A stretch of DNA of 64,000 bases, from the NCBI RefSeq assembly GCF_022810405.1, contig NZ_JALGQE010000001.1:186001-250000 (forward strand), read 5' to 3'. Positions 4,272 to 25,709 of the stretch are shown one piece after another. A program made the position numbers and the translations under genes. The first letter of the stretch is position 1; each line of letters opens with the position of its first letter. The stretch comes from Rhodococcus sp. ARC_M5. Lineage in GTDB: Bacteria > Actinomycetota > Actinomycetes > Mycobacteriales > Mycobacteriaceae. Below the pieces are notes generated by a model. It worked only from the letters and a program-made list of their open reading frames with translations. It was not told the DNA's origin and searched no databases.

Positions 4272-5657
4272 TCACCAGAATTCGGGCGTCAGGCCCCAGC
4301 GTTCGAACTCCGCCTCGACGAGCCCACGCAGGTGCTCCTTGCTGGGAAACCTGTCCGGATCGAGCCCGGTGACGCAGAGTGTCGCGCGCTCCCCCGATTC
4401 GTTCCACCAGGCGCTGACGCCGCCGCCGGTGCGGCGCAGCAGGTCGACATCGGTGTTCTGCGTGATCGACCTCATCGCCACCGCGGTGGCGTCGACACCG
4501 CCGATGGTGCGCAGCGCGACGCCTCGTGCACCGAGATTCGAACACAGGCACAGCGGTGCCGATCCCGACGCGGCGAGCTTGGCGACGATCGCGTCCGGCA
4601 GCAACTGCATCAACGGTTTGAGAAGCTCGAACGTCGTCGTGACGGTGCGATCGGCCTGGGTTCTGAAGGCCTGCTTGCTCGATGCGCGGATAGCTCCGAG
4701 ATCGTCGAGGTACGCCCCTCCGGCGTCGACGTGAATCGAGACACCGGAGGTCGCGTTGGCGCGCCGATCTCCCGTGGTCCTGGTACTGACCGGAAGGGCG
4801 ACGCGAACCCTGTCCTCCGTTGTGATCCTGCCGCTTCCGGTCAGGATTCCGAGCACCACCGCGACCAGCAGACTGTTGGAGCTGCCGCCCTTGCTCGCTG
4901 CAGCGGCGGACCACTGCGAGGAAAGACAGTCGACAACGACGGTGCTCGGAACCCACGCCCCGTTCTCGGGTGCGACCAACACGCGCGGACGGTCCGGATC
5001 GGCGCTCGTGGAGTCCGGCGCGGCGTTGCTCCGGCCGGCCGACGCCGTGAACCGTGCCCTCGCCGTCTCCACCGCGGTGCGGCCGATCGCTCGTGCCGCA
5101 CCCGAGAGCGACGCACCGATCCGGCCGAGACCATCGGACACATCGGCTCCCGTGAGCGTCATCGAGGACGCGGAGCTGTCATCGAGTCCGACGCGTACGA
5201 AGTCGTCGGGTACAGCGCGTCCGGCGAGCGCAGCCGCGGCGGCAGAGGTCAGTGCCCCACCGTCGCCGACCACGTGCGAGCCGACCAGCGACACGATCGT
5301 GCCGCCTCCGTCGACCGAGGTGGCCGACAAGCGCCACGCCGGTCCCCCGATCGGGTCCAACGTCACTGCGGCTTCGTCCTCGATCCACCTGTCGACCGCC
5401 GTGCGGTCGATCGACGATCCGATCGCCACGGGATCGGCCGATCGGCGCGCCGCCGTCCAACTGTCACGGGCTCCGGGCATCCGCGTCCGCCGAACGGATC
5501 GATCGATGGGACCTGCGGCGAGCATTCGCCACATCGATTCGAGTGCGTCGAGTGCGACGGCACCGTCGAACTTCCAGACGATCTGGTTCACCACCGGTAC
5601 CCCGAGTACGCATTCCATGCGGAGGAACAGGTCGTCGTCGTACGTCAGTCTTTCCAC
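4272..5657 (-). CDS. Condensation-domain/WS-DGAT-like acyltransferase
   Basis: A 461-residue protein with the acyltransferase catalytic pattern HxxxDGG: H128-V-V-G-D132-G-G. It is clearly related to the product of 7085-8428. The two share the opening DxLFLRM (residues 8-14), the motif His/Asp at identical positions, LPDA near residue 350, and a closing W-x-L-x-x-x-FW. The family transfers acyl groups from CoA or carrier proteins to hydroxyl acceptors; the substrate here is unknown. The start is GTG, with TAGTCT 6 bases upstream. It is divergent from the glycosyltransferase gene, so a joint role in a glycolipid is plausible but inferred. Confidence 0.65.
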   Translation of the reverse strand: MERLTYDDDLFLRMECVLGVPVVNQIVWKFDGAVALDALESMWRMLAAGPIDRSVRRTRMPGARDSWTAARRSADPVAIGSSIDRTAVDRWIEDEAAVTLDPIGGPAWRLSATSVDGGGTIVSLVGSHVVGDGGALTSAAAAALAGRAVPDDFVRVGLDDSSASSMTLTGADVSDGLGRIGASLSGAARAIGRTAVETARARFTASAGRSNAAPDSTSADPDRPRVLVAPENGAWVPSTVVVDCLSSQWSAAAASKGGSSNSLLVAVVLGILTGSGRITTEDRVRVALPVSTRTTGDRRANATSGVSIHVDAGGAYLDDLGAIRASSKQAFRTQADRTVTTTFELLKPLMQLLPDAIVAKLAASGSAPLCLCSNLGARGVALRTIGGVDATAVAMRSITQNTDVDLLRRTGGGVSAWWNESGERATLCVTGLDPDRFPSKEHLRGLVEAEFERWGLTPEFW

Positions 5658-5663
5658 CTCGAG

Positions 5664-5669
5664 AGACTA
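5664..5669 (-). promoter_or_regulatory. -10 element for leaderless acyltransferase gene
   Basis: TAGTCT on the minus strand ends 6 bases before the GTG at 5657, with no Shine-Dalgarno sequence in between. Confidence 0.48.
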
Positions 5670-5801
5670 TCGCTGCGCGAGTGCAGACGCAGGTGGGCCG
5701 CAAATGTGTTTCGCACCATATGTTTTCCGCACCGGGCTACTGCGAGCGAAGCTGATAGGTTGTGATCGCTCTCCGAAACCGACGCGACTGCGAGTGCCCG
5801 T

Positions 5802-7079
5802 ATGAAGTTCGTGATGCCCTTCAACGGGAGCCGCGGTGATGTGACGCCCGGTCTGGCGCTGGGCGTCGAACTCTCAGATCGCGGGCACGAGGTGGTATTC
5901 GGCGCACCGCCGAATCTGCTGGACTTCGCGCGCACGACAACGGCCGAGTGCGACCCGATACGTGTGGTGTCGTTCGGCCCGGACACCCAGCGCCTCTTGG
6001 AGTCCGAGCTGATCAGGGTGCGTATCAAATCACGCAATCCGCGGACCAGGTTGGCAGCGCTGGCCGAGCTTGCCAACTACGGCTGGGACCGAATGACAGC
6101 CGAACTCGAGCAGATGGCCGAAGGTTGCGATGCGGTCGTCACCGGTTCGCTGGGGCAGGAAATGGCCTTCAACATGGCCGAGTCTGCGGGCAGTGCTTTT
6201 GTGGCACTGCACTATTGCCCACTCCGGCGCAACGACGTCGTGCCCGTGGTTCCGGGAATCACCCTGCCGGGCCGGCTCAATCGATCGATGTGGGCATTGG
6301 CAGAGTCGATGCGCTGGAAGTCGATGAAGACCCGAGAGAACGCGCAGAGAGTGTCCCTCGGAATGGCACCGACCGGCGATTCGTTGCCCGTTCGCTCCGA
6401 ACGCTACGGCGGGGTCGAGATTCAGGCCTACGAGTCGGCGCTGTTCCCAGGGCTCGCCGAGCAATGGGGACCGCTTCGTCCGTTCGTCGGATTCCTCGGC
6501 CTGAGCAGTGGACGCTTCGAGGCCGATCCCACGCTGGAGGAATGGCTGCAGGCCGGCTCGGCACCGGTGTATTTCGGATTCGGCAGCATGCCTGTTCCCG
6601 ACCCGGCCGCCCTCCTGCGCATGATCGAGAACGTCGTGGAAAGACTCGGTGTTCGTGCTCTCGTCTGTGCCGGCTGGAGCAACCTCGTCGGTGCCGATTC
6701 TGTTGCGACTCGGACGAACTCCAGCATCAAGATCGTGGATTCGGTCGATCATGGGACTGTTTTTCCGCAGTGCCTCGCCGCGGTGCACCACGGCGGCGCG
6801 GGTACGACGGCGGCCACTGCGCGGGCGGGTCTACCGACGCTCGTGTGTTGGTTCAGCGCCGATCAGCCGTACTGGGGAACCGCTCTACGACGGATCGGAG
6901 CCGGAGCCAGCACGAAGTTCTCGACACTGACCGAATCCGTGTTGCAGCAGGCCATTACCGATATCACTACCGACCGCGCCAGGCAGGCGGCGCGTCGACT
7001 CGCCGACGTCGTTGCCCCGACCACAACGGCGGTGGCTGCAGCTGCCGACATCGCCGAAGCCGCCGCGCGCGACCGCTGA
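5802..7079 (+). CDS. GT1-family glycosyltransferase
   Basis: A 425-residue GT-B fold glycosyltransferase of the sterol/flavonoid glucosyltransferase and mycobacterial glycolipid Gtf type. The N-terminal nucleotide-sugar fold opens MKFVMPFNGSRGDVTPGLAL. The linker is followed by FGFGSMP (258-264). The C-terminal donor-binding signature is HHGGAGTTAA (329-338) with DQPYWG (354-359). No signal peptide or membrane segment is seen. It sits between two divergent/convergent acyltransferase genes and ends 5 bases from the stop of the second. A likely role is adding a sugar to a lipid or polyketide that the neighbours acylate. Acceptor and donor cannot be read from the sequence. Confidence 0.82.
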   Translation: MKFVMPFNGSRGDVTPGLALGVELSDRGHEVVFGAPPNLLDFARTTTAECDPIRVVSFGPDTQRLLESELIRVRIKSRNPRTRLAALAELANYGWDRMTAELEQMAEGCDAVVTGSLGQEMAFNMAESAGSAFVALHYCPLRRNDVVPVVPGITLPGRLNRSMWALAESMRWKSMKTRENAQRVSLGMAPTGDSLPVRSERYGGVEIQAYESALFPGLAEQWGPLRPFVGFLGLSSGRFEADPTLEEWLQAGSAPVYFGFGSMPVPDPAALLRMIENVVERLGVRALVCAGWSNLVGADSVATRTNSSIKIVDSVDHGTVFPQCLAAVHHGGAGTTAATARAGLPTLVCWFSADQPYWGTALRRIGAGASTKFSTLTESVLQQAITDITTDRARQAARRLADVVAPTTTAVAAAADIAEAAARDR

Positions 7080-7084
7080 CGCAG

Positions 7085-8428
7085 TCACCAGAAACGCGCG
7101 GACAGCTCCCATCGAGCGAACGCCTCGGTCAGGTGTTCACGCAGGACGTCCTCGTCGGCAAAGCGATCGGGATCCATGGCGTGCACGGTCACGGTCACGC
7201 TCGATCCCGTCTCGCACACCCAGGCCGTGAGACCACCGTCGAGCGACCGGGCGAATGCGGCATCGGCTCCCGCGAACGTCGCCCTGCCCGAGACTGCACG
7301 AGCCCGAACGCCGGCCACCGTGGTGAAGTCCTCGGGGAGGACACCGAGGTTGGACGCGAGCCCTTCGGCACCGTCTCGCGGCTGCGGAACACGCGCAACC
7401 ACGGCGTCGGGCAGCATTTGGACAAGGGCCTGCGAGATGCCTGTGGGTGCCTGCCCTTCGGCCTGCCTCACGGCGAAAGCGGTGAACGCCGCCTTGCTGA
7501 TCGACCGAATCGTCGTCAGGTCGCGGTCCGAGGCGTCGGTGACGGGGACGTCGATCTTGACGATCTTGGTGGCGTTGGAACGGGTGTCGGCCGGGGTGCG
7601 GTCACTGACCGGCAGAGACCACTGCACCGAGTCGCCGATCGAGGCACGTCCGGCGTTCCCGGACGCTGCCGTCAGGACGGCGATGAACAGCGAATTGGAC
7701 GTACCACCCCATCGCTCGGCGGCTGCGGTCCAGGCACCCGCGTTCACCTCTGCCACGGCGTGAGGTGATACCCAGTCGGAGTCCATCGCGTCGGCGGGCA
7801 CCTGTGACCGGGTCGGGCGGGATCGTGGGACGACCGCGTCGGGTTCGGTTCGGGTCGGGATCGGCAGTGCGTCGGCGGCGGCGTTCACCAGCCACCCAGC
7901 GACGGACCACGCTTGCTCTGCGGCGTCTCTGAGGTCCGAGCCGATGGCTGCGATGCCGTCGGCGTCAGGAGCCAACCGGCCTTGTTTCGACCGGTTGTTC
8001 GCAGCACGGACTGCTTCGATCAGCGCACCGCCGTCGGCGACCATGTGCGACGCGACCAAGGACACGACCGTCCCGCCGTTCGACACCGGTGCCGCCGCCA
8101 GACGCCATCCGAGACCGGTTTCGGGGTCGATGTCGGGATCGAGACGGCCGTCGGCCCACGCCGGTATGTCGGCCTCGTCGATGAACTGCGAGTGAAAGTC
8201 CAGTGAATGGGAGACGGGTGATCGCACCCATCGAGCACGAGCAGTCGGCACTCTCGAGGAGACCACTCGGCGCGCAAGCAAACCGTCGGACAGGTTGTTG
8301 CGTAGATTTTCCAGGTCGTCGCGCCGGACGGTTTCGTCGAACCACCACAAAAACTGGTTATAGACGGGATATCCGATGCCGTGGTGCATTCTCAAGAATA
8401 GGTGATCGGCAAATCCAATTCGAGTCAC
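7085..8428 (-). CDS. Condensation-domain/WS-DGAT-like acyltransferase
   Basis: A 447-residue paralogue of the protein at 4272-5657. The catalytic motif is H128-M-V-A-D132-G-G, at exactly the same residue numbers. It opens DHLFLRMHHG and closes W-E-L-S-A-R-FW. The flanking S-L-V-A-S-H and D-G-G-A-L segments also match. It is tail to tail with the glycosyltransferase gene (5-base gap). The GTG start has TACGTT 6 bases upstream. It faces the 8429-8981 control region, so it and the papA-like operon starting at 8982 may respond to the same signals. Acyl donor and acceptor are unknown. Confidence 0.65.
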   Translation of the reverse strand: MTRIGFADHLFLRMHHGIGYPVYNQFLWWFDETVRRDDLENLRNNLSDGLLARRVVSSRVPTARARWVRSPVSHSLDFHSQFIDEADIPAWADGRLDPDIDPETGLGWRLAAAPVSNGGTVVSLVASHMVADGGALIEAVRAANNRSKQGRLAPDADGIAAIGSDLRDAAEQAWSVAGWLVNAAADALPIPTRTEPDAVVPRSRPTRSQVPADAMDSDWVSPHAVAEVNAGAWTAAAERWGGTSNSLFIAVLTAASGNAGRASIGDSVQWSLPVSDRTPADTRSNATKIVKIDVPVTDASDRDLTTIRSISKAAFTAFAVRQAEGQAPTGISQALVQMLPDAVVARVPQPRDGAEGLASNLGVLPEDFTTVAGVRARAVSGRATFAGADAAFARSLDGGLTAWVCETGSSVTVTVHAMDPDRFADEDVLREHLTEAFARWELSARFW

Positions 8429-8434
8429 GCGCCG

Positions 8435-8440
8435 AACGTA
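8435..8440 (-). promoter_or_regulatory. -10 element for leaderless acyltransferase gene
   Basis: TACGTT on the minus strand ends 6 bases before the GTG at 8428; no ribosome-binding site is present. Confidence 0.45.
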
Positions 8441-8745
8441 CTACATCTCCGACACCGAGGCAGCGGTGAGAATTCGCCACTTACCACGTATTAGCAATCG
8501 ACAATAGGTGCAGTGATATGCACGCCGAATTGTGCCCCGCATCATGTTCGGCCCATCCAGTGATGTGGCTCGTAGTCCGTCGTCCGAGCCGTGCCGCACC
8601 ACACTCTCCCTGTGAACATTCATGAAGAAGACCAGCAGAAACAGTGATGCAGTCGTACGATAGGACAGTCGGGGCGTCTTCGGCAGGAGATCCGGGATCG
8701 ACAGGTCAAGACGCTCGACAGTGAGAAGTATTACTTTTACGCGTA

Positions 8746-8766
8746 GCGAAATAATTTTGGTTTCGC
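8746..8766. repeat. Palindrome GCGAAA-N9-TTTCGC
   Basis: Perfect 6-bp arms separated by nine AT-rich bases, in the divergent control region. The size and symmetry fit a dimeric repressor site better than a terminator. Confidence 0.4.
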
Positions 8767-8815
8767 CCTATCGTGTGTTCTGGACTCACTTCGGGTCGAC
8801 GGCAATGACGTTGTT

Positions 8816-8831
8816 CTTTCAATGATGAAAG
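8816..8831. repeat. Hairpin CTTTCA-ATGA-TGAAAG
   Basis: A perfect 6-bp stem with a 4-base loop, 50 bases downstream of the GCGAAA palindrome and about 150 bases before the 8982 start. It could be an operator or a leader hairpin. Confidence 0.35.
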
Positions 8832-8981
8832 CAGCAATCCAACAGCAAACACATAAACGACGAGTCGACGCGACGGGCACCGCTCCGCTGCTTTACACGC
8901 GCGGCTCAACCGTAATCGGACACTCAATACCGAACGAACGCCGAACATCGCTGACCGAGCCCGGAACGGAAGAGGACTCCC

Positions 8982-10430
8982 ATGGAATACACCGAACTCG
9001 CCGACTACCCCCTCCCCGCCGGTCGCCTGACCGAGTGGGTCCCCCGCGTCGACGACGACCGCTGGGCGCCGGACCCCCGCGGCCTGTCCTTCACGCACCA
9101 GGACCATTGCGAGCGCAGCGCACCGGGCTCGTGGATCGGCACGGTGTTCGAGATTCATCGCCGCTACGACGTCGAGGCAGTGCGCGCAACGATCGCCGCA
9201 TACATGGCTCGCCACGAGGCGTTTCGCACCAAGGTTCGGCGCGACGAGGAATCCGGTTCGTGGCTGCGCCACACCGCTCCGGCAGATGCGGTGCAGGTGA
9301 CCGATCGGGCACACACCGAACCCCGGACCGAGACTCAGGTCTTCAGCCACCTGCACTCCTGGTTCGGCGAAACCGTGTCTCCGACGGCGTGGCCGCACTT
9401 CGTCCTCGCCACCATCGAACCGGACGACGCATCCCGCGCTCTGGCGAACGGGCCGGGAGAGTCGTTCCTGCTCGCGTTCGCCGCCGACCACTCGGTGATG
9501 GACGCCTACAGCCAGATCTATGCCATCAACGAGATCGACCGCCTGTACGCACACGCCCTCGACGGCATCGACCCGGAGTTACCCGAAGTAGGTAGCTATG
9601 TCGACTTCAGCCAGTCCGAGAGGACTCTCGGCGAGACGCTGACCAGCGACCACAGTGCAGTGCGCACCTGGCAGGAATTTCTGTCGGTGGAGGACGGACG
9701 CTTCCCCGCCTTCCCACTGCCGGTGACGGTCGACGGGGCACCCGCTGCCGCCGATCCAGCTGCTCAGAGCAGCATCTCGTCGTGGTTGCTGACGTCCGAC
9801 CAGTCGGATGCCTTCAACTCTGCGTGCCGTACCGCCGGGTACAACATGCAAGCCGGAATACTCGCGGCTCTCGCCTTGACGAACTCGCGCCTGTCCGGCC
9901 GCTCGTCGTTGCGCACCGTGATGCCGATGCACACCAGAGACGAGCAGAAGTGGGCTGCGTCGGTCGGGTGGTACGTCGGCATCCTGCCCATGGAGATCGA
10001 GCTCGACAACGCTCACACCTTCGGGGAGGCACTCGAAGCCGCGGCAACTGCGGGCGCGGCCAACAAGGGTCTGGCACGTATGCCGTACTCGAAGATCGCC
10101 CAGATCCTCGAGTCGACGGAGATTCCCCGATTCGTGGTCTCGTACATCGACCTTCGGTTCCTTCCGGACGCCGCGCAGTGGCAGGGCCGCAAGGGCCGGG
10201 CTCTGCGAAGCAACTGCCACGCCGACGACGAGGTGTACTTCTGGGTCAACAGGACGCTCGAAGGCCTCAACATCTCCGCGCGCTTCCCCAGTTCGGATGT
10301 TGCATCCACCAACGTCCACCGTTTCATCACCGAGTTCGTCGCAGTGTTGACGGCGGTGATCGACTCCGACTGCGGTGCCGATACGGTGCTCACGTCGGCC
10401 TCGCAGTCGGTGGTCGTCGCCGCAGAGTGA
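8982..10430 (+). CDS. PapA-type acyltransferase (condensation domain) A
   Basis: A 482-residue protein with the layout of mycobacterial PapA1/PapA2/PapA3, which acylate trehalose glycolipids. The N-terminal signature is PAGRLTEWVP (12-21). The catalytic motif is DH170-S-V-M-D174 (HxxxD; the usual following Gly is Ala). GSYVDFS follows at 204-210, then FPAFPLP, which PapA1 also has (as FPEFPLP). No signal peptide is seen. It is the first gene of a run of three papA-like genes read in the same direction, and is most similar by eye to the paralogue at 14797, with the shared opening ME[YF]TELADY. The acyl donor and acceptor are unknown. Confidence 0.75.
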   Translation: MEYTELADYPLPAGRLTEWVPRVDDDRWAPDPRGLSFTHQDHCERSAPGSWIGTVFEIHRRYDVEAVRATIAAYMARHEAFRTKVRRDEESGSWLRHTAPADAVQVTDRAHTEPRTETQVFSHLHSWFGETVSPTAWPHFVLATIEPDDASRALANGPGESFLLAFAADHSVMDAYSQIYAINEIDRLYAHALDGIDPELPEVGSYVDFSQSERTLGETLTSDHSAVRTWQEFLSVEDGRFPAFPLPVTVDGAPAAADPAAQSSISSWLLTSDQSDAFNSACRTAGYNMQAGILAALALTNSRLSGRSSLRTVMPMHTRDEQKWAASVGWYVGILPMEIELDNAHTFGEALEAAATAGAANKGLARMPYSKIAQILESTEIPRFVVSYIDLRFLPDAAQWQGRKGRALRSNCHADDEVYFWVNRTLEGLNISARFPSSDVASTNVHRFITEFVAVLTAVIDSDCGADTVLTSASQSVVVAAE

Positions 10431-10476
10431 GCCATCGAATCGGGCCGCGGCCCCAACCGAAAAGGATGAAGCGACG

Positions 10477-11934
10477 ATGATCATCACCGCAATGGGCAGG
10501 TGGAATCCCGCTCCCGGCCGTCTGCTCGAGTGGCATCCGACGGCGGCGGCCGAAGCGATCGCCGCTGCGGCACCGGCCGATTCGACTCCGCCGTCGTTTC
10601 TCCAGGAGGACCATCTGAAGGCGGCCTGGGCGGCACGCGAACGCGGCGATGTTCACACCGCCTACACCGGGGTCGCAACCGAGATCGACGGTGACGTGGA
10701 CACGGACGCGATGAGCCGCGCGCTGGCCGCCTACGTAGTGCGTCACGAGGGCCTGCGTTGCTGGTTCGAGATCGAGAACAACACCGTCGTTCGACATCTC
10801 GCCACCCCCGAGGTAGCCGCGTTCGAGGTGTCGGACGCCGGTCATGCGACTGACGACGAGCAGTTCCAACGCTATGTGCGCCAACGGTTCTCGTCCGAGG
10901 CAACCGCGGACGTCTGGCCCGGGTTCGTCGTCGGTGTCGTCGCCAGGCCCGGTAGCTTCACCCTGCACTACGGTGCCGACCATGCGTTCACCGACGGCGG
11001 TTCGCAGGCATTGGTCATCAGCGAATTGGCCGATCTGTACGCCCTCGAGACCGGAGCACAGGTACCCGAACCTGCAGAAGCAGGTAGCCATCTGACCTAC
11101 GCCGCCGACGAACGGGCACGAGCGGCAACATTCGGGTCCGATGCTCCCGAAATCGCCGCCTGGCGAGACATCTTCACCCGGCACGACGGCCGGATGCCCC
11201 GATTCCCACTCGACCTCGGGCTCGCACCCGGTGAGAAAGCCCCGGTTCGCATCGTCGAACGTCACTTGCTGGACAAGGACCTGACTGCCGCATTCGACGC
11301 CGCATGCAAGGCCGCCGGGGCCCGGATGAGCAGCGGCATCTTCGCCGCCGTCGGGATCACCGACTTCGAATTGGCCGGTGCCACCGACTACTTCGGGATC
11401 ACCGTACTGAGTACCCGGCACCACGGTGACTACGGACAGTCTCAGGGGTGGTTCGTCAATTTCGCTCCGGTCGCGTTCGAGGTGGCAGGACACGACACGT
11501 TCTCCGACGTCGCGGCCCTGGCGCACCGAGGCTTCGAGGAGGCCAAACAGATCGCCGAGGCCCCGGTGCACGCCGTACTCGGCGCTCTGGCTGCCGACGG
11601 CACTCTGGGTAGCGAGCTGGCGGTCAGCCCGAACATGCTCTCGTACATCGACTTTCGCTGGTTCCCCGGCGTCGGGCGAGACGCCGACACACGCGCGAAG
11701 CACTTCACCGGAGAAGGTTCGACGTCCAACGCATCGATGTGGATCAACCGAGACGGTGAGCACCTGTATCTGGTGGCACAAACCCCCGATACCGAGGTCG
11801 CCGCCGCTGCGGTGCAGCGATACCACGACCACCTCGCGCACGTGCTGAACACCATTGCCCGCGAGGGTGATTACGACATCACGCTCGACCATCTCGTTCA
11901 GGAGCCGGCCGGTGCGGGTCACCTCGATCACTGA
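10477..11934 (+). CDS. PapA-type acyltransferase (condensation domain) B
   Basis: A 485-residue PapA1-like protein. Its opening, W-N-P-A-P-G-R-L-L-E-W-H-P-T (9-22), is strikingly like the W-D-P-A-P-G start of M. tuberculosis PapA1 as I recall it. The catalytic motif is DH169-A-F-T-D173-GG. AEAGSHL and MPRFPLDLG follow in the middle. The ATG at 10477 is preceded by AAAGGA at 10461-10466; the frame is open upstream but that part overlaps the previous gene. It is probably cotranscribed with the gene ending at 10430. Acylation of a sugar lipid is inferred from the family. Confidence 0.75.
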   Translation: MIITAMGRWNPAPGRLLEWHPTAAAEAIAAAAPADSTPPSFLQEDHLKAAWAARERGDVHTAYTGVATEIDGDVDTDAMSRALAAYVVRHEGLRCWFEIENNTVVRHLATPEVAAFEVSDAGHATDDEQFQRYVRQRFSSEATADVWPGFVVGVVARPGSFTLHYGADHAFTDGGSQALVISELADLYALETGAQVPEPAEAGSHLTYAADERARAATFGSDAPEIAAWRDIFTRHDGRMPRFPLDLGLAPGEKAPVRIVERHLLDKDLTAAFDAACKAAGARMSSGIFAAVGITDFELAGATDYFGITVLSTRHHGDYGQSQGWFVNFAPVAFEVAGHDTFSDVAALAHRGFEEAKQIAEAPVHAVLGALAADGTLGSELAVSPNMLSYIDFRWFPGVGRDADTRAKHFTGEGSTSNASMWINRDGEHLYLVAQTPDTEVAAAAVQRYHDHLAHVLNTIAREGDYDITLDHLVQEPAGAGHLDH

Positions 11935-13285
11935 GTTCACCCCGCGTGCGGGTGCGCTGATCGAGTTCACCGCCGTCGTCACCGGCGATCCGCGACCCTC
12001 GCCCATTCCACCGTCGTTCAACCAGCTGTTTCACCTGGGCGATCTGGAGAAGGCCGAGCGCGTCTGGATCGCCGGGTCCTTCGATGTCCAGGGCAGCATC
12101 GATATCGAAGCACTCGGGTGGTCATTCGAGCGTTTGATCGACCGCCACGACACCCTGCGCAGTGCGTTCGTCCGCAGAACGGCAGGGGTCGAACGGACGC
12201 TCTACGAGCCGGGTGCCGTCGAGATGCGGCAGTCCACTCGATCCGCTGTCGCGTCGGCGTCCACGCTTCGGGATCAGCTCCGAAGCGCACTCCAACTACA
12301 CTGTGATGCACGGCAATTCCCGTCGTACACCTGTTTCGGCATCGACCGGCCGGACACCTCGACCGTGCTGTGCGCATTCGACCACGCCAACGTCGACGCC
12401 ATGTCCATCGCCGTGGTCGTCGACGAGATACACACCCTGTACGACGCCCACCGTCGCTGCCCGTCGAGACCGGACGTGGACCTGCCTCCGGTAGGTGGGT
12501 TCGTCGAGTACTGCCGCATCGAGGCAACCGAGCCGCGCGTCGATCCCGCGGACGAGCGCATGGTGCGGTGGGCGAACTTTCTCACCGAGTGCGGGGGCAC
12601 CACGCCGCGTTTCCCCTTCGACCTCGGCCTCGCCGACGGTGACGCCGCGCCACAGGCAACGGCGCTCACCCCCGTGCTCGATGCGCGGCACACCCTCGAA
12701 TTCGAGCAGCTCTGCGCCGGATCGGGAGCCGGCATGTTCGCAGGCGTCGTCGCTGCCATCGCGCAGGCCGGTGCCGCCATCGGCGGACCGAGCCGCATGC
12801 CGTTTCTGTTCCCGCTGCACACCCGCCATCAGCAGAAGTGGTCGCGAGCCCTGGGCTGGTTCACCACCAATGCCCCCATGACCGTCGAGGTCGGAACCCA
12901 CCTCTCCGACACGATCACCGCCGCCCACAGCGCGTTTCGGGCAGCACTGCCGTTGAGCACCGTCCCGATCCCCCAGGTGTTGGCCAATCTCGGCGATGCG
13001 TTCACGCTGTCGCGTCGAGACGTGTTCATGGTGTCCTACATCGACTACACGAGAATCGACGGACACGAACTCTTCGAGGACTCGAACGCACACCACATCA
13101 GCAATGCCACGGTGTCCGACGACGCCCAGTTCTGGGTCTCCCGCACCCCCTCGGGACTGGCCCTGCGAGCACGCTTCCCCGACACACCCACGGCACGCGC
13201 GGTGATGGCCGCGTTCACCGCCGAACTCGTCGCCCTCATGCGGGCCTGCACAACGAAGCCCGACATCGCTGCCCTGACGCCCTGA
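11912..13285 (+). CDS. PapA-type acyltransferase (condensation domain) C
   Basis: A 457-residue relative of the two preceding proteins, with the N-terminal signature PRAGALIEF (11-19). The motif is FDH158-A-N-V-D162-A, so the Gly after the catalytic Asp is replaced by Ala, as in paralogue [13 protein letters not shown] follows. The chosen start is GTG 11912, with AGGAG at 11900-11904, overlapping the end of the previous gene by 23 bases, so translation is probably coupled. It ends the three-gene run; a new promoter (TAGGAT, 13301-13306) precedes sseA. It is shorter and more divergent than A, B and D and may have a different substrate. Confidence 0.7.
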
Positions 13286-13300
13286 CGAACCGATTCCGCA

Positions 13301-13306
13301 TAGGAT
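13301..13306 (+). promoter_or_regulatory. Probable -10 element of sseA-sufE operon
   Basis: TAGGAT, 65 bases before the sseA GTG, in the short gap after the papA-like operon. Confidence 0.35.
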
Positions 13307-13371
13307 CGACAGTGCAGTCCGTTCACCCCCGGGCGGGCCGCGAGCCGAATATCTTCCGTAGGAGCCGATAC

Positions 13372-14268
13372 GTGCCTGTACCAACCGATTCCAACGCAAC
13401 GTTCGCCGACTATGCGCATCCGGATCGTCTCGTATCGACCGAATGGCTGTCCGCTCATCTCGGCACCCCCGGCCTTCGCGTCGTCGAATCCGACGAGGAC
13501 GTGTTGCTCTACGACGTCGGCCACATCCCCGGTGCCGTCAAGATCGACTGGCATCTCGACCTCAACGATCCGGTCACCCGCGACTACATCGACGGCGAGC
13601 AGTTCTCGACACTGATGAGCCGCAAGGGTATTTCGCGAGAAGACACCATCGTCGTGTACGGCGACAAGAGCAACTGGTGGGCCGCGTACGCACTGTGGGT
13701 GTTCACCCTCTTCGGCCATCAGGACGTCCGTCTGCTCGACGGAGGTCGTGACGCCTGGCTGTCGGAGAACCGTGACACCACGCTCGATGTCCCCGAGTTC
13801 CCCGCAACCGACTACCCGGTAGTCGAGCGTGACGACGCACCCATCCGTGCGTTCGCCTCCGACGTGCTCGGCTCGCTCGGCACCGTGCCACTGATCGACG
13901 TTCGCTCCCCCGCCGAGTACACCGGCGAGCGCACCCACATGCCCGACTACCCGGAAGAAGGCGCGCTGCGAGGAGGCCACATCCCCACCGCCGTGAGCAT
14001 CCCGTGGGCCAAGGCGGCTGCACCGGACGGACGCTTCCGTTCCCGCAAGGAACTCGACGAGATCTACTCCGACACCTCCTCGACCGACGAGGTGATCGCC
14101 TACTGCCGCATCGGTGAGCGGTCGAGTCACACCTGGTTCGTGTTGACCCACCTCCTCGGATACGACTCGGTTCGCAATTACGACGGCTCGTGGACCGAAT
14201 GGGGCAACGCCGTTCGCGTCCCGATCGCCAAGGGCGAGGAGCCCGGATCGGCTCCGGCGGCTCGATGA
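13372..14268 (+). CDS. sseA: Thiosulfate/3-mercaptopyruvate sulfurtransferase
   Basis: A 298-residue tandem-rhodanese protein, the usual size for SseA/CysA2. It moves sulfane sulfur from thiosulfate or mercaptopyruvate to a thiophilic acceptor through a persulfide on the active-site Cys. The C-terminal domain holds the active loop C245-R-I-G-E-R-S. The N-terminal domain has VVYGDKSN at the equivalent place and no Cys, so it is structural. The start GTG 13372 has AGGAG at 13360-13364. The sufE-like gene overlaps the stop (ATGA). In mycobacteria the same pair lies directly between maf and accA3; here acyltransferase genes flank it on both sides. Confidence 0.9.
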
Positions 14269-14678
14269 GTTCCCTTCCGGAATCGCTGGCCGAGATCGTC
14301 GAGGACTTCGCCGCAGTGGAGGGCCAGGACAAACTGCAGCTGCTGCTGGAGTTCAGTCGCGAACTGCCTCCGCTGCCCGAGCACCTGGCCCAGGATGCGA
14401 TGGAACCGGTGCCGGAGTGCCAGTCTCCGCTGTTCCTGTCGGTCGACGCGGGAGATCCGGCGCGGATCCAGTTGTACTTCAGCGCCCCGCCGGAAGCGCC
14501 GACCACGCGGGGGTTCGCCTCGATCCTCGCGCAGGGACTCGACGGTCTCAGCGCACAGGAGATCCTCGACGTGCCGGACGACTTCTACTCGGCGCTGGGG
14601 CTGAGCGACGCGGTCAGCCCGCTACGACTGCGCGGAATGTCGGCGATGCTGGCGCGGATCAAGCGTCACCTGCGTTGA
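14265..14678 (+). CDS. SufE-like sulfur acceptor protein
   Basis: A 137-residue SufE-family protein. SufE takes sulfur from a cysteine desulfurase (or here perhaps from SseA) on a conserved Cys and passes it to Fe-S assembly. The acceptor Cys is C52 in [12 protein letters not shown], matching the family CQS motif. The ATG overlaps the sseA stop, so the two are coupled, as in the M. tuberculosis pair Rv3283-Rv3284. It is followed by a terminator-like hairpin. Confidence 0.85.
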
Positions 14679-14681
14679 CGG

Positions 14682-14704
14682 GCGACGGTAGCGCGCCGTC
14701 GTCT
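14682..14704 (+). terminator. Hairpin terminator after sufE-like gene
   Basis: Stem GGCGACGG / CCGTCGTC (one G-T pair) with loop TAGCGCG, starting 3 bases after the stop. It is followed by TTGATC rather than a long T-run, as is common in actinobacteria. Confidence 0.5.
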
Positions 14705-14734
14705 TGATCGATACAACGGGTCGTCGTTAGACTC
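14705..14734 (+). promoter_or_regulatory. Promoter of papA-like gene D
   Basis: TTGATC (14705-14710), 18 bases, then TAGACT (14729-14734), which fits a housekeeping promoter. The block TTAGACTCCG (14728-14737) recurs upstream of accA3 at 16335-16344. Confidence 0.5.
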
Positions 14735-14740
14735 CGCGGC

Positions 14741-14759
14741 AGGGCTGCAAGGGCCCTGT
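14741..14759 (+). repeat. Hairpin CAGGGC-N7-GCCCTG in leader
   Basis: A perfect 6-bp stem just downstream of the likely transcription start of the papA-like gene D and about 40 bases before its ATG. It could affect leader folding or bind a regulator. Confidence 0.35.
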
Positions 14760-14796
14760 CCCCCGATGCGTACGACGAAGGTTGGTTGCTGCCGAT

Positions 14797-16266
14797 ATGG
14801 AGTTCACGGAGTTGGCGGACTACGCGGTTCCCGCGGGCACGCTCACCGAGTGGATACCCAGCGTCGGCCCGCAGGCCCGCACGCCGGAAGCGGCAGGGTG
14901 GCGGCCCGACGCCAGGCCGACGTCCTACGTCCACGAGGCACACCTGCGGACGAGCCTGAGCAGTCCTCGTCGCGGTCGTGAGTCATGGCTCGGCGCGGCC
15001 TTCGAGATCGCGGGCCCCTTGGACAAGCCTGCGTTTCGCCGGGCAGTTCTGAACTGGATAGACCGGCACGAGGCGATGCGTTCGAGCGCGTCGATCGACG
15101 AGGTGACGGGCGAGATGACGCGGGTGACCGCCGCACAGGGAGCTATCGACATCTGGCAGGTCGAGCAGGAGCGGTGCGCGCAATCGAGCGAGGTCTTCGA
15201 GCACCTGCAGTATCTCTTCGACGAGTTCACCTCGCCGTTGATCTGGCCGGCCTATGCCTTCGTGACGCTCGAACCGGTGGACGAGACGCGTCCGATCACC
15301 GTGTTCTTCGCAGCGGATCACTCGATCATCGACGGGCTGTCCACGGTGCTGGTGGCCCACGAGATCGCTGCTCTGTACGGAGAAGAACTCGGCGGTGCGC
15401 CTGCCGCCCTCTTCGAGGCCGGCAGCTACCTCGACTTCGGTTCCTCCGAACGCGAGAGGAATGCGGAACTGGAGCATTCGCACGACGCTGTGCGGATCTG
15501 GCGGGACTTTCTCGTCGACGGCGACGGCGAGCTACCTGCCTTTCCCCTCGACATCGGTGATCCGAGCCCGGACGATCTGCCCCAGGGCGGTTTGTCCGCG
15601 TGGGTGCTCGACCCCGATCAGGCCGACGCGTTCTCGGTCGCGTGCCGCAAGACCGGGCACAGCCTGTTCGCCGGTTTGCTCGCAGTGCTGGCCATCACCG
15701 GTTCCGAACTGGGCGGCGGCACTCGCTTTCGCACGGTGACTCCGGTCCACACCCGGGACGAGCCCCAATGGGCATCCGCGCTGGGTTGGTTCGTCGGACT
15801 GTGCCCCATATCGTTCGACATCGCCGGCACGGACTCGTTCGGCTCGGTGGTGGCAGCGGCCTCGGCCGAGGTGAAGAAAACCAAACCGATCGCCCGCGTT
15901 CCTCTGGATCGCGTGTTCACCACTCTCGGCTACTCCGCCCGCCCGCGTTTCGTCGTGTCGTTCATGGATGTCCGGTTCGCACCGGCCGCCGAGCACTGGC
16001 CGGACTGGAACGCCCGAGCCCTGCGTAGTAAGCAGTATCAGCACGACGTCTACATCTGGATCAATCGCACACCGCAGGGAATGAACATCGCGGCGCGCTA
16101 CCCCAACACCGAGCAGGCAACCGCGCGGGTCCACGAGTACGTCGGTGCCTTCCGCGCACTGTTGACCGATGTCGCGGACACCGGGACGGCCCGGTTCCCT
16201 GTCGCGAGCGACGAGCGCTCCGATATCGGGCATCTCGACTCCGGTCAGATCGCTACCAATCAGTAG
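14797..16266 (+). CDS. PapA-type acyltransferase (condensation domain) D
   Basis: A 489-residue close paralogue of the protein at 8982. Both open ME[YF]TELADY followed by PAG-x-LTEW, and share GSY[VL]DF and [FL]PAFPL. The catalytic motif is AADH175-S-I-I-D179-G. It retains the canonical Gly after the Asp that paralogue A has lost. It lies alone between the sseA-sufE pair and accA3, whereas A-C lie before sseA. Its own promoter precedes it, and the ribosome-binding site is weak (AAGG, about 15 bases upstream). Its placement next to accA3 and a shared promoter block suggest coordinated expression with acyl-CoA carboxylation. The product is unknown. Confidence 0.75.
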   Translation: MEFTELADYAVPAGTLTEWIPSVGPQARTPEAAGWRPDARPTSYVHEAHLRTSLSSPRRGRESWLGAAFEIAGPLDKPAFRRAVLNWIDRHEAMRSSASIDEVTGEMTRVTAAQGAIDIWQVEQERCAQSSEVFEHLQYLFDEFTSPLIWPAYAFVTLEPVDETRPITVFFAADHSIIDGLSTVLVAHEIAALYGEELGGAPAALFEAGSYLDFGSSERERNAELEHSHDAVRIWRDFLVDGDGELPAFPLDIGDPSPDDLPQGGLSAWVLDPDQADAFSVACRKTGHSLFAGLLAVLAITGSELGGGTRFRTVTPVHTRDEPQWASALGWFVGLCPISFDIAGTDSFGSVVAAASAEVKKTKPIARVPLDRVFTTLGYSARPRFVVSFMDVRFAPAAEHWPDWNARALRSKQYQHDVYIWINRTPQGMNIAARYPNTEQATARVHEYVGAFRALLTDVADTGTARFPVASDERSDIGHLDSGQIATNQ

Positions 16267-16341: not shown

Positions 16342-16394
16342 CCGACGTGACGTTCGCAACGATGCACGCGAGAAATACATCCGTAGGAGGCTCA

Positions 16395-18188
16395 GTGCCC
16401 AGCCATGCCAGTGCTCAGATCACCAAGGTTCTTGTCGCCAATCGTGGTGAGATCGCGGTGCGGGTGATCCGGGCGGCCGCCGATGCCGGGTTGGCCAGTG
16501 TCGCTGTGTATGCCGAGCCCGATGCCGATGCCCCGTTCGTACGCCTGGCCGACGAAGCCTTCGCCCTCGGTGGGCAGACATCGGCGGAGTCGTATCTGGT
16601 GATCGACAAGATCCTCGACGCCGCCGCCAAGTCCGGTGCCGACGCCATCCACCCCGGCTACGGATTCCTCTCCGAGAACGCCGACTTCGCCCAGGCCGTG
16701 ATCGACGCCGGACTGATCTGGATCGGACCGTCCCCCCAGTCCATCCGCGACCTCGGCGACAAGGTCACCGCCCGCCACATCGCCGCCCGCGCGAAGGCAC
16801 CGTCGGTCCCCGGCACCTCCGAACCGGTCAAGGACGCCGACGAAATCCTCGCGTTCGTCGACGAACACGGCCTCCCCATCGCCATCAAAGCCGCATTCGG
16901 TGGCGGCGGGCGCGGCATGAAAGTGGCCCGCACCCGCGAAGAAATCCCCGAACTGTTCGACTCGGCCACCCGCGAAGCCGTCGCCGCATTCGGGCGTGGG
17001 GAATGCTTCGTCGAACGCTACCTCGACAAGCCACGCCACGTCGAAGCCCAGGTCATCGCCGACCAACACGGCAACGTCATCGTCGCCGGTACCCGCGACT
17101 GCTCCCTGCAACGCCGCTTCCAGAAACTCGTCGAAGAAGCCCCCGCCCCGTTCCTCACCGACGCCCAACGCAAAGAAATCCACTCCAGCGCCAAAGCCAT
17201 CTGCCTCGAAGCCGGCTACTACGGAGCCGGGACGGTCGAATACCTCGTCGGCCAAGACGGCCTCGTGTCGTTCCTGGAGGTCAACACCCGACTGCAGGTC
17301 GAGCATCCCGTCACCGAAGAAACCTCCGGCATCGACCTCGTGCTGCAGCAGTTCAAGATCGCCAACGGCGAAGAACTGTCCATCACCGAGGACCCGGAAC
17401 CACGCGGGCATTCGTTCGAGTTCCGGATCAACGGCGAAGACGCCGGCCGCGGGTTCCTGCCCGCCCCCGGACCGGTCACCACCTTCACCGCCCCCTCCGG
17501 CCCCGGAGTGCGTGTCGATTCCGGTGTCGAATCCGGCAGTGTGATCGGTGGCCAGTTCGATTCGATGCTCGCCAAACTCATCGTCACCGGAGCCACCCGC
17601 AACGAAGCCCTCGCACGCTCGCGCCGCGCGCTCGCGGAGTTCACCGTCGACGGGTTGGCGACGGTCATCCCGTTCCACGCTGCGGTGGTCTCCGATCCCG
17701 CGTTCATCGGCGACGGCGAGTCGTTCGCGGTGCACACCCGCTGGATCGAAACCGAATGGGACAACCAGGTACCCCCGTTCACCGCCGGCCAGCCGATCGA
17801 CGACGACGACGCACTACCCCGCCAGTCCGTCGTCGTCGAGGTCGGGGGCCGACGTGTCGAGGTCTCCCTGCCCGGGGAACTGTCCCTCGGCGGCAACAAC
17901 GGCGGGAATGCCGGTGCGGTGCGGCGTAAACCCAAAGCCCGTACCCGCGGCGGTGCCGGAGCAGGAGCCGCCTCCGGAGACTCGGTCACCGCACCGATGC
18001 AGGGCACCGTGGTCAAAGTCGCCGTCGAAGAAGGCCAGGAAGTCGCCGCCGGTGACCTCGTCGCCGTCCTCGAAGCGATGAAAATGGAAAACCCCGTCAA
18101 CGCCCACAAAGCAGGCACCATCACCGGCCTGACCGTCACCGCAGGCGACGCCATCACCCAAGGCACCGTCCTCGCAGAGATCAAATGA
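16395..18188 (+). CDS. accA3: Acyl-CoA carboxylase alpha subunit (biotin carboxylase + carrier)
   Basis: A 597-residue fusion of biotin carboxylase and biotin carboxyl carrier, close to the 600 of mycobacterial AccA3. It carboxylates its own biotin with ATP and bicarbonate and feeds AccD partners. It opens with [13 protein letters not shown]. The ATP-grasp glycine loop is GGGGRGMK near residue 170, and the catalytic region holds [14 protein letters not shown]. An Ala/Gly linker precedes the carrier domain with EAMKM, where K563 is the biotinylated lysine. The start GTG 16395 has TAGGAGG at 16384-16390. Together with accD5/accE (1080-3001) it completes the carboxylase; birA would biotinylate it. 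Confidence 0.94.
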
Positions 18189-23804: not shown

Positions 23805-25709
23805 ATGTCCGTCAAGCCCACCACACGCAGACGTGTCCATCCTGTCGACGAAGTTCTCCCGGTTCCGAAGCTTGCCGCCTACGGGTTCCAACATGTCGTC
23901 GCGTTCTACGCAGGCGCTGTCTTGGTACCGATCATCATCGGCAGCGCGATCGGACTGACCAACGAACAACTGATTCACCTGATCAATGCGGATCTGTTCA
24001 CCTGCGGCATCGCATCGATCATTCAATCGGTCGGATTCTGGAAGGTCGGCGTCCGCCTGCCGCTCCTACAGGGTGTGACGTTCGCCGGTGTCTCTCCGGT
24101 GATCGCGATCGCGATGGCGAACGGCGGCGGCACCGAGGGGTTGCTGTACGTCTACGGTGCCGTCATCGTCGCCGGTCTCGTCACGTTCTTCATGGCTCCG
24201 TATTTCAGCAAGCTGCTGCGCTTCTTCCCGCCCGTGGTGACCGGTACCGTCATCACGATCATCGGAGTGGCGCTGCTCCCCGTCGCAGTCAACGATGCAG
24301 TGACCAATCCTGCTACTCACGAACAGGATCCGTCCAACGGGCGGTGGATGGCCTACGCGATCGGCACGCTGCTGATCATCGTGCTGATCCAACGGTTCTT
24401 CAAGGGCTTCATGGCCACCATCGCGGTGCTGCTGGGCCTGGTGATCGGCAGTGCCGTCGCATTCGTCCTGGGAGACATGAATTTCGACGGCACCTCCGAG
24501 GCGTCCTGGATCGGCTTCACGCAGCCCTTCCTGTTCGGTGTGCCCAAATTCAGTGTCGTCGCGATCATTTCGATGATCGTCGTCATGCTCATCATCGCCG
24601 TCGAAACCACCGGCAGTGTGTATGCGACGGGTGAGATCGTCGGCAAGCGCATCAAGAAGGACGACATCGCAGCGACTCTGCGCGCGGACGGAGTAGCCAC
24701 CGTCATCGGCGGTACGTTCAACTCGTTCCCGTACACGGCCTTCTCGGAGAACGTCGGCCTGGTCCGCCTGACCGGTGTGCGCAGCCGGTGGGTGGTGGCC
24801 ACGGCCGGCGGCATCATGATTCTGCTCGGCCTGCTACCCAAGACGGCAGCCGTCGTCGCATCGATCCCACCCCCGGTGCTGGGCGGAGCCGCGCTCGCCC
24901 TCTTCGCGACCGTCGCCGTGGTCGGAATCCAGACACTGTCGAAGGTGGATTTCACCGATCACCGCAACCTGATCATCGTCGCCACAAGCCTCGGGCTCGC
25001 GATGCTCGTGACCATTCAACCGACGGTTTCCGAGGGTGTGCCCGATTGGCTGGAAATGTTGTTCGGCAGTGGCATCGTTCTCGGCGCGGTCTCCGCGATC
25101 GTGCTCAACGTGCTGTTCTTCCACATCGGCAACCGAGGTCAGGCCGTCGCTGGCGGTCCGGGGAAGGGCATCACCCTCGACACGGTCAACGAGATGTCCG
25201 CCGAGGACTTCGCTGCCACGTTCGGCGGCTTGGTGCAGGGCACCCCGTGGGTTGTCGAACGCGCCTACCAGCAGCGGCCTTTCGCCGATGCGCACGGTCT
25301 GCGCGAGGCCTTCCAGGAGGCACTGTTGGCCGGCACCACCGAGGAACAGATCGAGCTGATCAACAGCTACCCCGATCTCGGCAGCGAGGACGCCACCGGC
25401 ACCCTCAACGCGGCGGACCACGTCGGCTTGTCCAACCTGGAGGAGGACGAGCACGACAACATCGTCCAACTCGCCGCCGAATACCGCGAACACTTCGGCT
25501 TCCCGCTGGTGATCTGTGCACGGGAGACCGAACGTTACGATCGAGTCCTGGCCAACGGGTGGTCGCGCGTCGAGAACGCACCGTCGGCGGAGCGGTCGTT
25601 CGCGATGATCGAGATCGCCAAGATCGCGAACTACCGGTTCGACGATCTCGTGGCCGACGCCAACCCGATCGCGGCCGCGCGGTTCGGGCGCATCAACGAC
25701 TTCAGATAG
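23805..25709 (+). CDS. Xanthine/urate permease fused to OHCU-decarboxylase-like domain
   Basis: A 634-residue two-domain protein. Residues about 15-450 form a nucleobase:cation symporter-2 transporter with many hydrophobic helices; the opening YGFQHVVAFYAGAVLVPIII and the mid-protein ETTGSVYATGEIVG fit the xanthine/uric-acid group. Residues about 455-630 resemble 2-oxo-4-hydroxy-4-carboxy-5-ureidoimidazoline (OHCU) decarboxylase: GTPWVVERAY, HFGFPLVICARE, MIEIAKIANYRF. In that domain the family's HPDL/HPRIG catalytic His is Tyr (Y522 in NSYPDLG), and the downstream Glu-Gln of the SxxEQ motif reads Ala-Ala, so catalysis is doubtful. A separate intact decarboxylase gene follows 10 bases later. 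Confidence 0.85.
   Translation: MSVKPTTRRRVHPVDEVLPVPKLAAYGFQHVVAFYAGAVLVPIIIGSAIGLTNEQLIHLINADLFTCGIASIIQSVGFWKVGVRLPLLQGVTFAGVSPVIAIAMANGGGTEGLLYVYGAVIVAGLVTFFMAPYFSKLLRFFPPVVTGTVITIIGVALLPVAVNDAVTNPATHEQDPSNGRWMAYAIGTLLIIVLIQRFFKGFMATIAVLLGLVIGSAVAFVLGDMNFDGTSEASWIGFTQPFLFGVPKFSVVAIISMIVVMLIIAVETTGSVYATGEIVGKRIKKDDIAATLRADGVATVIGGTFNSFPYTAFSENVGLVRLTGVRSRWVVATAGGIMILLGLLPKTAAVVASIPPPVLGGAALALFATVAVVGIQTLSKVDFTDHRNLIIVATSLGLAMLVTIQPTVSEGVPDWLEMLFGSGIVLGAVSAIVLNVLFFHIGNRGQAVAGGPGKGITLDTVNEMSAEDFAATFGGLVQGTPWVVERAYQQRPFADAHGLREAFQEALLAGTTEEQIELINSYPDLGSEDATGTLNAADHVGLSNLEEDEHDNIVQLAAEYREHFGFPLVICARETERYDRVLANGWSRVENAPSAERSFAMIEIAKIANYRFDDLVADANPIAAARFGRINDFR

Follow-up and report, generated by a model that had tools for sequence, protein, structure and literature searches.

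A 64,000-nucleotide stretch of the Rhodococcus sp. ARC_M5 genome (5.40 Mb; contig positions 186001-250000; hereafter the window) carries a set of acyltransferase and glycosyltransferase genes, here lettered d to j, which we regard as the probable assembly locus of an acylated trisaccharide lipid. The genes lie between maf and the biotin carboxylase gene accA3 in the order maf, d, e, f, g, h, i, sseA, sufE, j, accA3 (Table 1), and all open reading frames (ORFs) named in a first-pass annotation of the sequence were recovered at the positions it gave. That annotation described one island between maf and accA3. The genes do lie in this interval, but because sseA and the SufE-domain gene sit between i and j they form two blocks, not one unbroken island. 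The operon it placed at 8982-13285 covers g, h and i only. No ORF of at least 120 amino acids was found lying mostly inside the divergent f/g intergenic region, which is likely the promoter region for g-h-i. A horizontally acquired island was considered and rejected: the guanine-plus-cytosine content is 0.648-0.681 in the genes measured against 0.654 in the rest of the window, and this lack of contrast gives no sign of a recent foreign insert.

Table 1. Features of the interval in window coordinates
Feature	Position	Strand	Description
Gene d	4272..5657	-	Divergent HxxxDGG acyltransferase; HVVGDGG, H128/D132; syntenic in relatives
Gene e	5802..7079	+	GT1 glycosyltransferase; GSRGD and HHGGAGT motifs; putative beta-glucosyltransferase that would add the third glucose
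Gene f	7085..8428	-	Second divergent HxxxDGG acyltransferase; HMVADGG, H128/D132; 37% identity to d
f/g divergent intergenic region	8429..8981	.	553 bp
Gene g	8982..10430	+	PapA-type acyltransferase; PF00668; PapA2 6aef 1.8e-27; ortholog group in tree
Gene h	10477..11934	+	PapA-type; PF00668; PapA2 6aef 5.1e-44, nearest of the four to PapA2
Gene i	11912..13285	+	PapA-type; PF00668; PapA2 6aef 5.8e-33; start overlaps end of h
sseA-like rhodanese	13372..14268	+	Conserved neighbour outside the module; start uncertain
sufE-like gene	14265..14678	+	PF02657 4.4e-31; neighbour
Gene j	14797..16266	+	PapA-type; PF00668; PapA2 6aef 6.7e-37; stays beside accA3 where d-i are absent
accA3-like biotin carboxylase	16347..18188	+	Flank; called by eye from sequence; start uncertain; anchor for locus comparison

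Protein families encoded at the locus

The products of g, h, i and j had been described as PapA-like condensation-domain proteins, and this description holds. All four match PF00668 (Condensation) well above the Pfam cut-off of 30.6 bits (g 84.8, h 78.3, i 50.4 and j 83.3), and the HxxxD motif lies exactly where it was first placed (H170/D174, H169/D173, H158/D162 and H175/D179 in g, h, i and j, a numbering that assumes starts at 10477, 11912 and 14797 for h, i and j). The best solved match of each is the trehalose-2-sulfate acyltransferase PapA2 (6aef), with most of each protein covered. The motif falls in the expected range in 134 of 134 extracted g-, h-, i- and j-type proteins, and H169 and D173 are invariant across 26 aligned proteins. 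By these family matches, g, h, i and j are PapA-type acyltransferases, and they are predicted to transfer acyl groups from coenzyme A (CoA) to trehalose. A tree of 79 PapA proteins, computed with several long-branch warnings, sorts g, h and i of the genus and of genera g10 and g18 into three groups and joins the j of the genus with that of genera g9, g21 and g23; the j of genera g10 and g18 forms a separate long branch.

Away from the locus, a lone PapA-like gene (L054, 9210-10658; G000, C47) is 32% identical to h, and about 1.3 kb from it lies a gene that by eye resembles the GT2 type described below. A further 54 condensation-domain matches in C12, C74, C73, C68 and C2 of G000 fall mostly in frames of up to 10,061 codons, and these very long frames look like non-ribosomal peptide synthetase (NRPS) genes.

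Genes d and f encode proteins of about 450 amino acids, which were rightly set apart in the first pass as a second, HxxxDGG-bearing family. Neither has a Pfam or NCBIfam match above cut-off; with Pfam relaxed to an E-value of 10, d gives no match and f a single stray at 0.018, and a phage-family library searched with d/f returned no match. HxxxDG is present in 56 of 57 d/f-type proteins, and the exception is a paralog outside the locus in which H and D are kept. This third d/f paralog (L055, 9339-10586; G000, C58) reads HALADA, without the glycine after the motif, and adjoins an ORF that by eye is enoyl-CoA hydratase-like. Against the PDB, the d/f profile matches PapA5 (8s6l) at 4.3e-4 across the part that holds HxxxD; all further matches (0.15 and above) are at chance level. 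In hhalign, d/f aligned with the PapA profile nearly end-to-end at an E-value of 0.0064 and a probability of only 5.9%, compared with 0.3 over 26 columns for a glycosyltransferase control. PF00668 was found in 3 of 47 d/f members (best 0.0037) and PF03007 (WS/DGAT) weakly in 2 of 47 (best 0.044), with none in d and f of the window, and membership of WS/DGAT was rejected at Pfam thresholds; the source genome holds two WS/DGAT proteins. With the PapA5/WS-DGAT superfamily d and f have HxxxDG in common, and they differ from it in having no Pfam match above cut-off. With moderate confidence, we propose from these comparisons that d/f would form a divergent subfamily of the PapA5/condensation superfamily, coherent but unnamed.

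Gene e is the single GT1 glycosyltransferase of the interval, as had been reported, and scores above the Pfam cut-off for both EryCIII-like_C and Glyco_transf_28. It aligns by sequence over most of its length with solved glycosyltransferases, the nearest being a sterol 3-beta-glucosyltransferase (2.5e-25) followed by Gtf enzymes. The exact pair GSRGD and HHGGAGT occurs in 21 of 39 extracted GT1 proteins, the others carrying variants of one or both, and G9, R11, G12, D13 and H329-G334 are invariant in 10 aligned GT1 proteins.

Conservation and co-inheritance

The nearest matches to g are Rhodococcus records at 89-93% identity; the only one of them named as fascians, R. fascians NBRC 12155, is 89% identical. 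The order d-e-f-g-h-i-sseA-j-accA3 recurs on the same strands in all 18 named related loci, judged as far as the contigs reach (L013 and L017 are short contigs, and L012 retains only the ends of accA3), and such recurrence is not expected by chance. At L012 (13835-14200) the first 47 and last 42 residues of accA3 stand 100 bp apart, through either a deletion or a scaffolding error. The record L018 is titled Rhodococcus ruber IEGM 1391; its locus and flanks are 74-99% identical to the window, and the species label is probably wrong.

We surveyed 37 genomes of the genus with a GT1 threshold of 1e-40. A single locus ortholog of e, of at least 55% identity, is present in 24 of these (split over two contigs in G010), seven have two GT1 genes of 40-44% identity, and six have none. 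At the locus, 36 of the 37 genomes have either the whole set of d, e, f, g, h and i or none of it; the exception is G017, whose 690-contig assembly yields only fragments of papA and lacks GT1. In five of the six genomes without GT1 (G019, G020, G028, G029 and G032), j is the sole g-type match at 1e-15 or better. In their loci (L041-L045) j lies between sseA and accA3, d-i are absent there, and the single d/f-type match of each genome lies off-locus. In every genus locus read that holds both, also where d-i are missing, j adjoins accA3. It is apparent from this pattern that d-i go together and that j is independent of them. The PapA tree includes two of the five genomes that have j alone; both fall inside module-bearing lineages with support of 84-100%, suggesting block loss of d-i. 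In L035-L037, from the lineage with two GT1 genes, maf (identified by eye) lies between i and sseA and not upstream of the module, which places the module on the other side of maf.

Among 201 genomes sampled from the family, 72 have an h match of 1e-60 or better and 70 a GT1 match. Where h matches at roughly 1e-102 or better, every one of the 33 genomes has a GT1 gene no more than 15 kb away, against 4 of the 21 that come next; this cut was chosen after the list had been seen, and typing covered all but the 18 genomes with weaker h. In the loci read from other genera the module is fuller, comprising d/f, one or two GT1 genes, mostly a GT2, a two-part ABC transporter (PF00005 and PF01061, with a DrrA-type C-terminus below cut-off only) and g-h-i. 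It lies beside sseA-j-accA3 in L046-L049, L071, L072, L075 and L076. The d/f-GT1-GT2-ABC-g-h-i modules of L067-L070, L073 and L074, from five other genera (g15, g22, g8, g16 and g28), have none of accA3, sseA and j within 7-9 kb past i, and on the d side most of these stretches end inside d. G051 has a second, divergent copy of the module beside accA3 (L071). No GT1 was found in the stretches read at L077 and L078, which hold papA genes, nor at accA3 in G115 (L050, L051). At L077 (G042) and L050 (a second place in G115), j-, h- and i-type papA genes form triplets, with no GT1 in the stretch covered; these are possibly glucose-free acyltrehalose loci. Overall, the genus and family surveys, which the first-pass annotation had proposed as a check, show the genes to be co-inherited, and its view that the interval serves the biosynthesis of a glycolipid with several acyl groups is well supported.

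The trisaccharide lipid of the R. fascians clade

R. fascians NBRC 12155 is listed as a producer of a trisaccharide succinic tetraester (PMC4365757, Table 3) in which both trehalose rings bear a 3-hydroxy-C8/C10 chain that itself carries C6, the third glucose has C6, and succinate is also present (PMC4365757); the third sugar is described as beta-glucose (PMC8396431). The record of this strain (L020) contains the full d-e-f-g-h-i-sseA-j-accA3 order, with d-j at full length and without internal stops and identities to the window of 75% (d), 73% (e), 73% (f), 89% (g), 86% (h), 70% (i) and 92% (j). Mass spectrometry of Rhodococcus sp. I2R lipids in 2021 profiled succinic esters of di- and trisaccharides, the trehalose identity of the core being the inference of that paper, and strain KRD197 is of the same species (>98% average nucleotide identity; PMC8396431). 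KRD197 (L027) carries the locus; its g (1461 bp) and h (1431 bp, spacing +1478) match papA entries in Table 5 of the I2R paper exactly, and its j matches in length (1488) with the spacing off by 19 bp, while the I2R entry for i (1404 bp) was not reproduced in L027. The locus is therefore present in a listed producer and in the species of a second.

The glycosyltransferase content of the locus was also compared with the number of sugars. The seven genus genomes with two GT1 genes also carry a locus GT2, 63-69% identical to the GT2 of L046; the best GT2 match elsewhere is 43% over part of the protein in the other 30 genomes (G020) and 42%, off-locus, among the 24 with a single locus GT1. G001, one of the seven, is assigned here to R. 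corynebacterioides: it contains the gene-specific parts of both R. corynebacterioides porARc primers (sequences from PMC9233653) with no mismatch over a span of 534 bp. Of the remaining 36, a single genome matches the forward part, with 3 mismatches, and 35 have neither part within 3. N. corynebacteroides SM1 (an older name of R. corynebacterioides) is listed with a pentasaccharide succinic octaester (PMC4365757). Locus glycosyltransferases thus equal the sugars beyond trehalose in two lineages, R. fascians (1/1) and R. corynebacterioides (3/3). A third comparison comes from Tsukamurella. G087 is T. paurometabola DSM 20162 (the first 20 kb of its second contig are 100% identical to plasmid NC_014159.1). 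Between accD5 and accA3 it has one GT1 (32%), a d/f-type gene and j (37%), a set shared by the other four Tsukamurella loci read; ORFs that by eye resemble maf, further HxxxDG acyltransferases and a membrane protein also lie in the G087 interval. T. tyrosinosolvens is listed with tri- and tetrasaccharide lipids (PMC4365757). With two lineages matching exactly and a third loosely, a relation between glycosyltransferase and sugar number is suggested but not statistically proven.

Taking these results together, the product of the locus is probably the 'glucotriose' lipid of the R. fascians clade, a trisaccharide carrying succinyl and other acyl groups. This is based on the PapA2-like matches, the sterol 3-beta-glucosyltransferase and Gtf matches of the GT1, the producer genomes, the glycosyltransferase count and the recurrence of the genes with an ABC transporter in other genera. 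The core would be trehalose or an acyl-trehalose from general metabolism, as the trehalose core in the cited chemistry implies. From its family, motifs, position and number, e is expected to add one glucose, with UDP-glucose as donor, and so form beta-glucosyl-trehalose. Together with d and f, the CoA-dependent PapA-type enzymes g, h and i may transfer succinyl, 3-hydroxy-octanoyl/decanoyl and hexanoyl groups, judged by family, to the sugar hydroxyls and to the 3-hydroxyl of bound chains, with succinyl-CoA and medium-chain (3-hydroxy)acyl-CoA as presumed donors. More speculatively, j could be an older, separable acyltransferase that sets the first acyl group. The substrates of the enzymes, the order of the steps and any role of d and f are inferred. 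The ester bonds reported for R. fascians are one succinate, two 3-hydroxyacyl, two secondary C6 and one C6 on the third sugar (PMC4365757); one enzyme for each of these six bonds is an attractive match for this lipid, but it was rejected as a general rule because j is separable from the other genes and the octaester lineage, too, has six enzymes.

Several observations weigh against this assignment. The R. corynebacterioides locus encodes six acyltransferases of these families against the reported octaester; strain SM1 differs from the sequenced strain, its chemistry coming from a review table; and the Tsukamurella count is inexact, one locus GT1 standing against one to two extra sugars. Reports disagree on whether the sugars are linked at C3 or C4 (PMC4365757). 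No single succinyl-specific enzyme could be distinguished in the locus, and a SucT homolog elsewhere was proposed in the 2021 paper (PMC8396431). An exporter is absent from the locus; of the sister-locus transporter, only the membrane part has a homolog in the source genome, at 49%. Five genomes keep j without d-i, and h/i relatives have no nearby GT1 in 17 of the 21 weaker-h genomes or at L050, L051, L077 and L078.

The papA part of the locus is prior art. The I2R paper proposed four papA genes for acylation, in the same order as here, and their correspondence with KRD197 extends to g and h in length and spacing and to j in length (PMC8396431). In the parts available, it lists papA and general trehalose genes, gives glycosyltransferases only as spread over several contigs, does not connect the GT1, d or f with these and makes no synteny or sugar-count argument (PMC8396431). 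TlsA of Rhodococcus sp. SD-74 is a PapA-type protein reported as needed for succinoyl trehalose lipid, with about 30% similarity to the I2R papA genes (via PMC8396431). In R. oxybenzonivorans SK11 a papA3-like gene near a glycosyltransferase was read as a possible trehalose-ester glycolipid locus; it differs in being a single papA3 in a 66.8 kb NRPS cluster, with no accA3, d/f or known-lipid link stated in the available parts (PMC13206832). With the mycobacterial PapA1/PapA2/PapA3 sulfolipid and acyltrehalose loci our locus shares HxxxD PapA proteins, to the point of a near full-length match to the PapA2 structure. Those loci link polyketide synthase and MmpL genes to papA; neither was found among the ORFs scanned between 4272 and 16266, where the first pass had likewise seen no polyketide synthase, and unlike them the present locus has acyltransferases of a second family and a glycosyltransferase. 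The chemistry of the penta- and trisaccharide succinoyl lipids of these bacteria goes back to 1989 and 1999 (PMC4365757, PMC8396431). We found no paper in the open-licence literature assigning a gene for sugar addition to these lipids, and no mutant of this locus in the literature searched. As far as that literature goes, what is new here is the joining of the GT1, d and f to the papA cluster, the recurrence of the module across genera and the relation of glycosyltransferase number to head-group size.

Alternative readings and head-group size

The locus might instead make another PapA-type trehalose polyester, comparable with diacyl- or polyacyl-trehalose or the TlsA succinoyl trehalose lipid, with the third glucose added elsewhere. 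The resemblance of all four PapA proteins to PapA2, the disaccharide lipids that I2R also makes (PMC8396431), the off-locus PapA-like gene in the genome (C47) and the h/i relatives without GT1 in other genera would all fit such a product. We nevertheless consider it unlikely, since in the family sample a GT1 accompanies strong h matches without exception and the trisaccharide and pentasaccharide lineages differ, as would be expected, in the glycosyltransferase content of the locus. A second possibility is that e acts on some other target, such as a sterol- or hopanoid-like lipid, a carotenoid or a drug, and is an accidental neighbour. The rifamycin-inactivating Rgt is its top NCBIfam match, although the score of 100.6 bits falls short of the cut-off, 800; sterol glucosyltransferases are its nearest relatives in the PDB. 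The tight linkage of GT1 and PapA genes in several genera, and the second GT1 and GT2 genes at the same spot, make such a coincidence highly improbable.

The first-pass annotation had proposed that the acyltransferases are joined to the adjacent carboxylase as its source of methylmalonyl- or malonyl-CoA, so that methyl-branched or malonyl-derived chains would be fed from next door and location and function would be coupled. The constant adjacency of j and accA3, kept even where d-i are missing, is what speaks for this. Against it stand the six modules (L067-L070, L073 and L074) without accA3, sseA or j within 7-9 kb past i, although an accA3 further off is possible there, and the acyl groups reported for the clade, which are medium-chain 3-hydroxy acids, short acids and succinate: 3-hydroxy-C8/C10 (mostly straight, few branched), hexanoate, phenylacetate and succinate (PMC8396431, PMC4365757). 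The locus also encodes no polyketide synthase. The clade acyl groups need no methylmalonyl-CoA. Coupling to the carboxylase as a functional need was therefore rejected, and we find this reading the hardest of all to credit; the carboxylase is a frequent neighbour whose required role is not supported by the evidence.

Beyond assembly of the glucotriose lipid by this locus, we tentatively suggest, as a proposal that could well prove wrong, that the genes form a portable acylated-oligosaccharide module, recognised through synteny in eight genera of the family; the glycosyltransferases beside its g-h-i acyltransferase core would, by their number and type, set head-group length (one GT1 giving trehalose plus one sugar, two GT1 and a GT2 giving trehalose plus three), and d/f would make up a new subfamily of acyltransferases. 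If so, the sugar number of an uncharacterized strain could be read from its genome. If the assignment of the locus is right, biosurfactants with a chosen head-group size would become designable in strains that are harmless, and a group of proteins of about 450 amino acids with no Pfam or NCBIfam match above cut-off would gain its first candidate function.

Elsewhere in the window, a 634-residue ORF at 23805-25709 (+) combines a PF00860 xanthine/uracil permease domain (residues 23-406) with a PF09349 OHCU decarboxylase domain (462-612), apparently a transporter fused to a urate-pathway enzyme.

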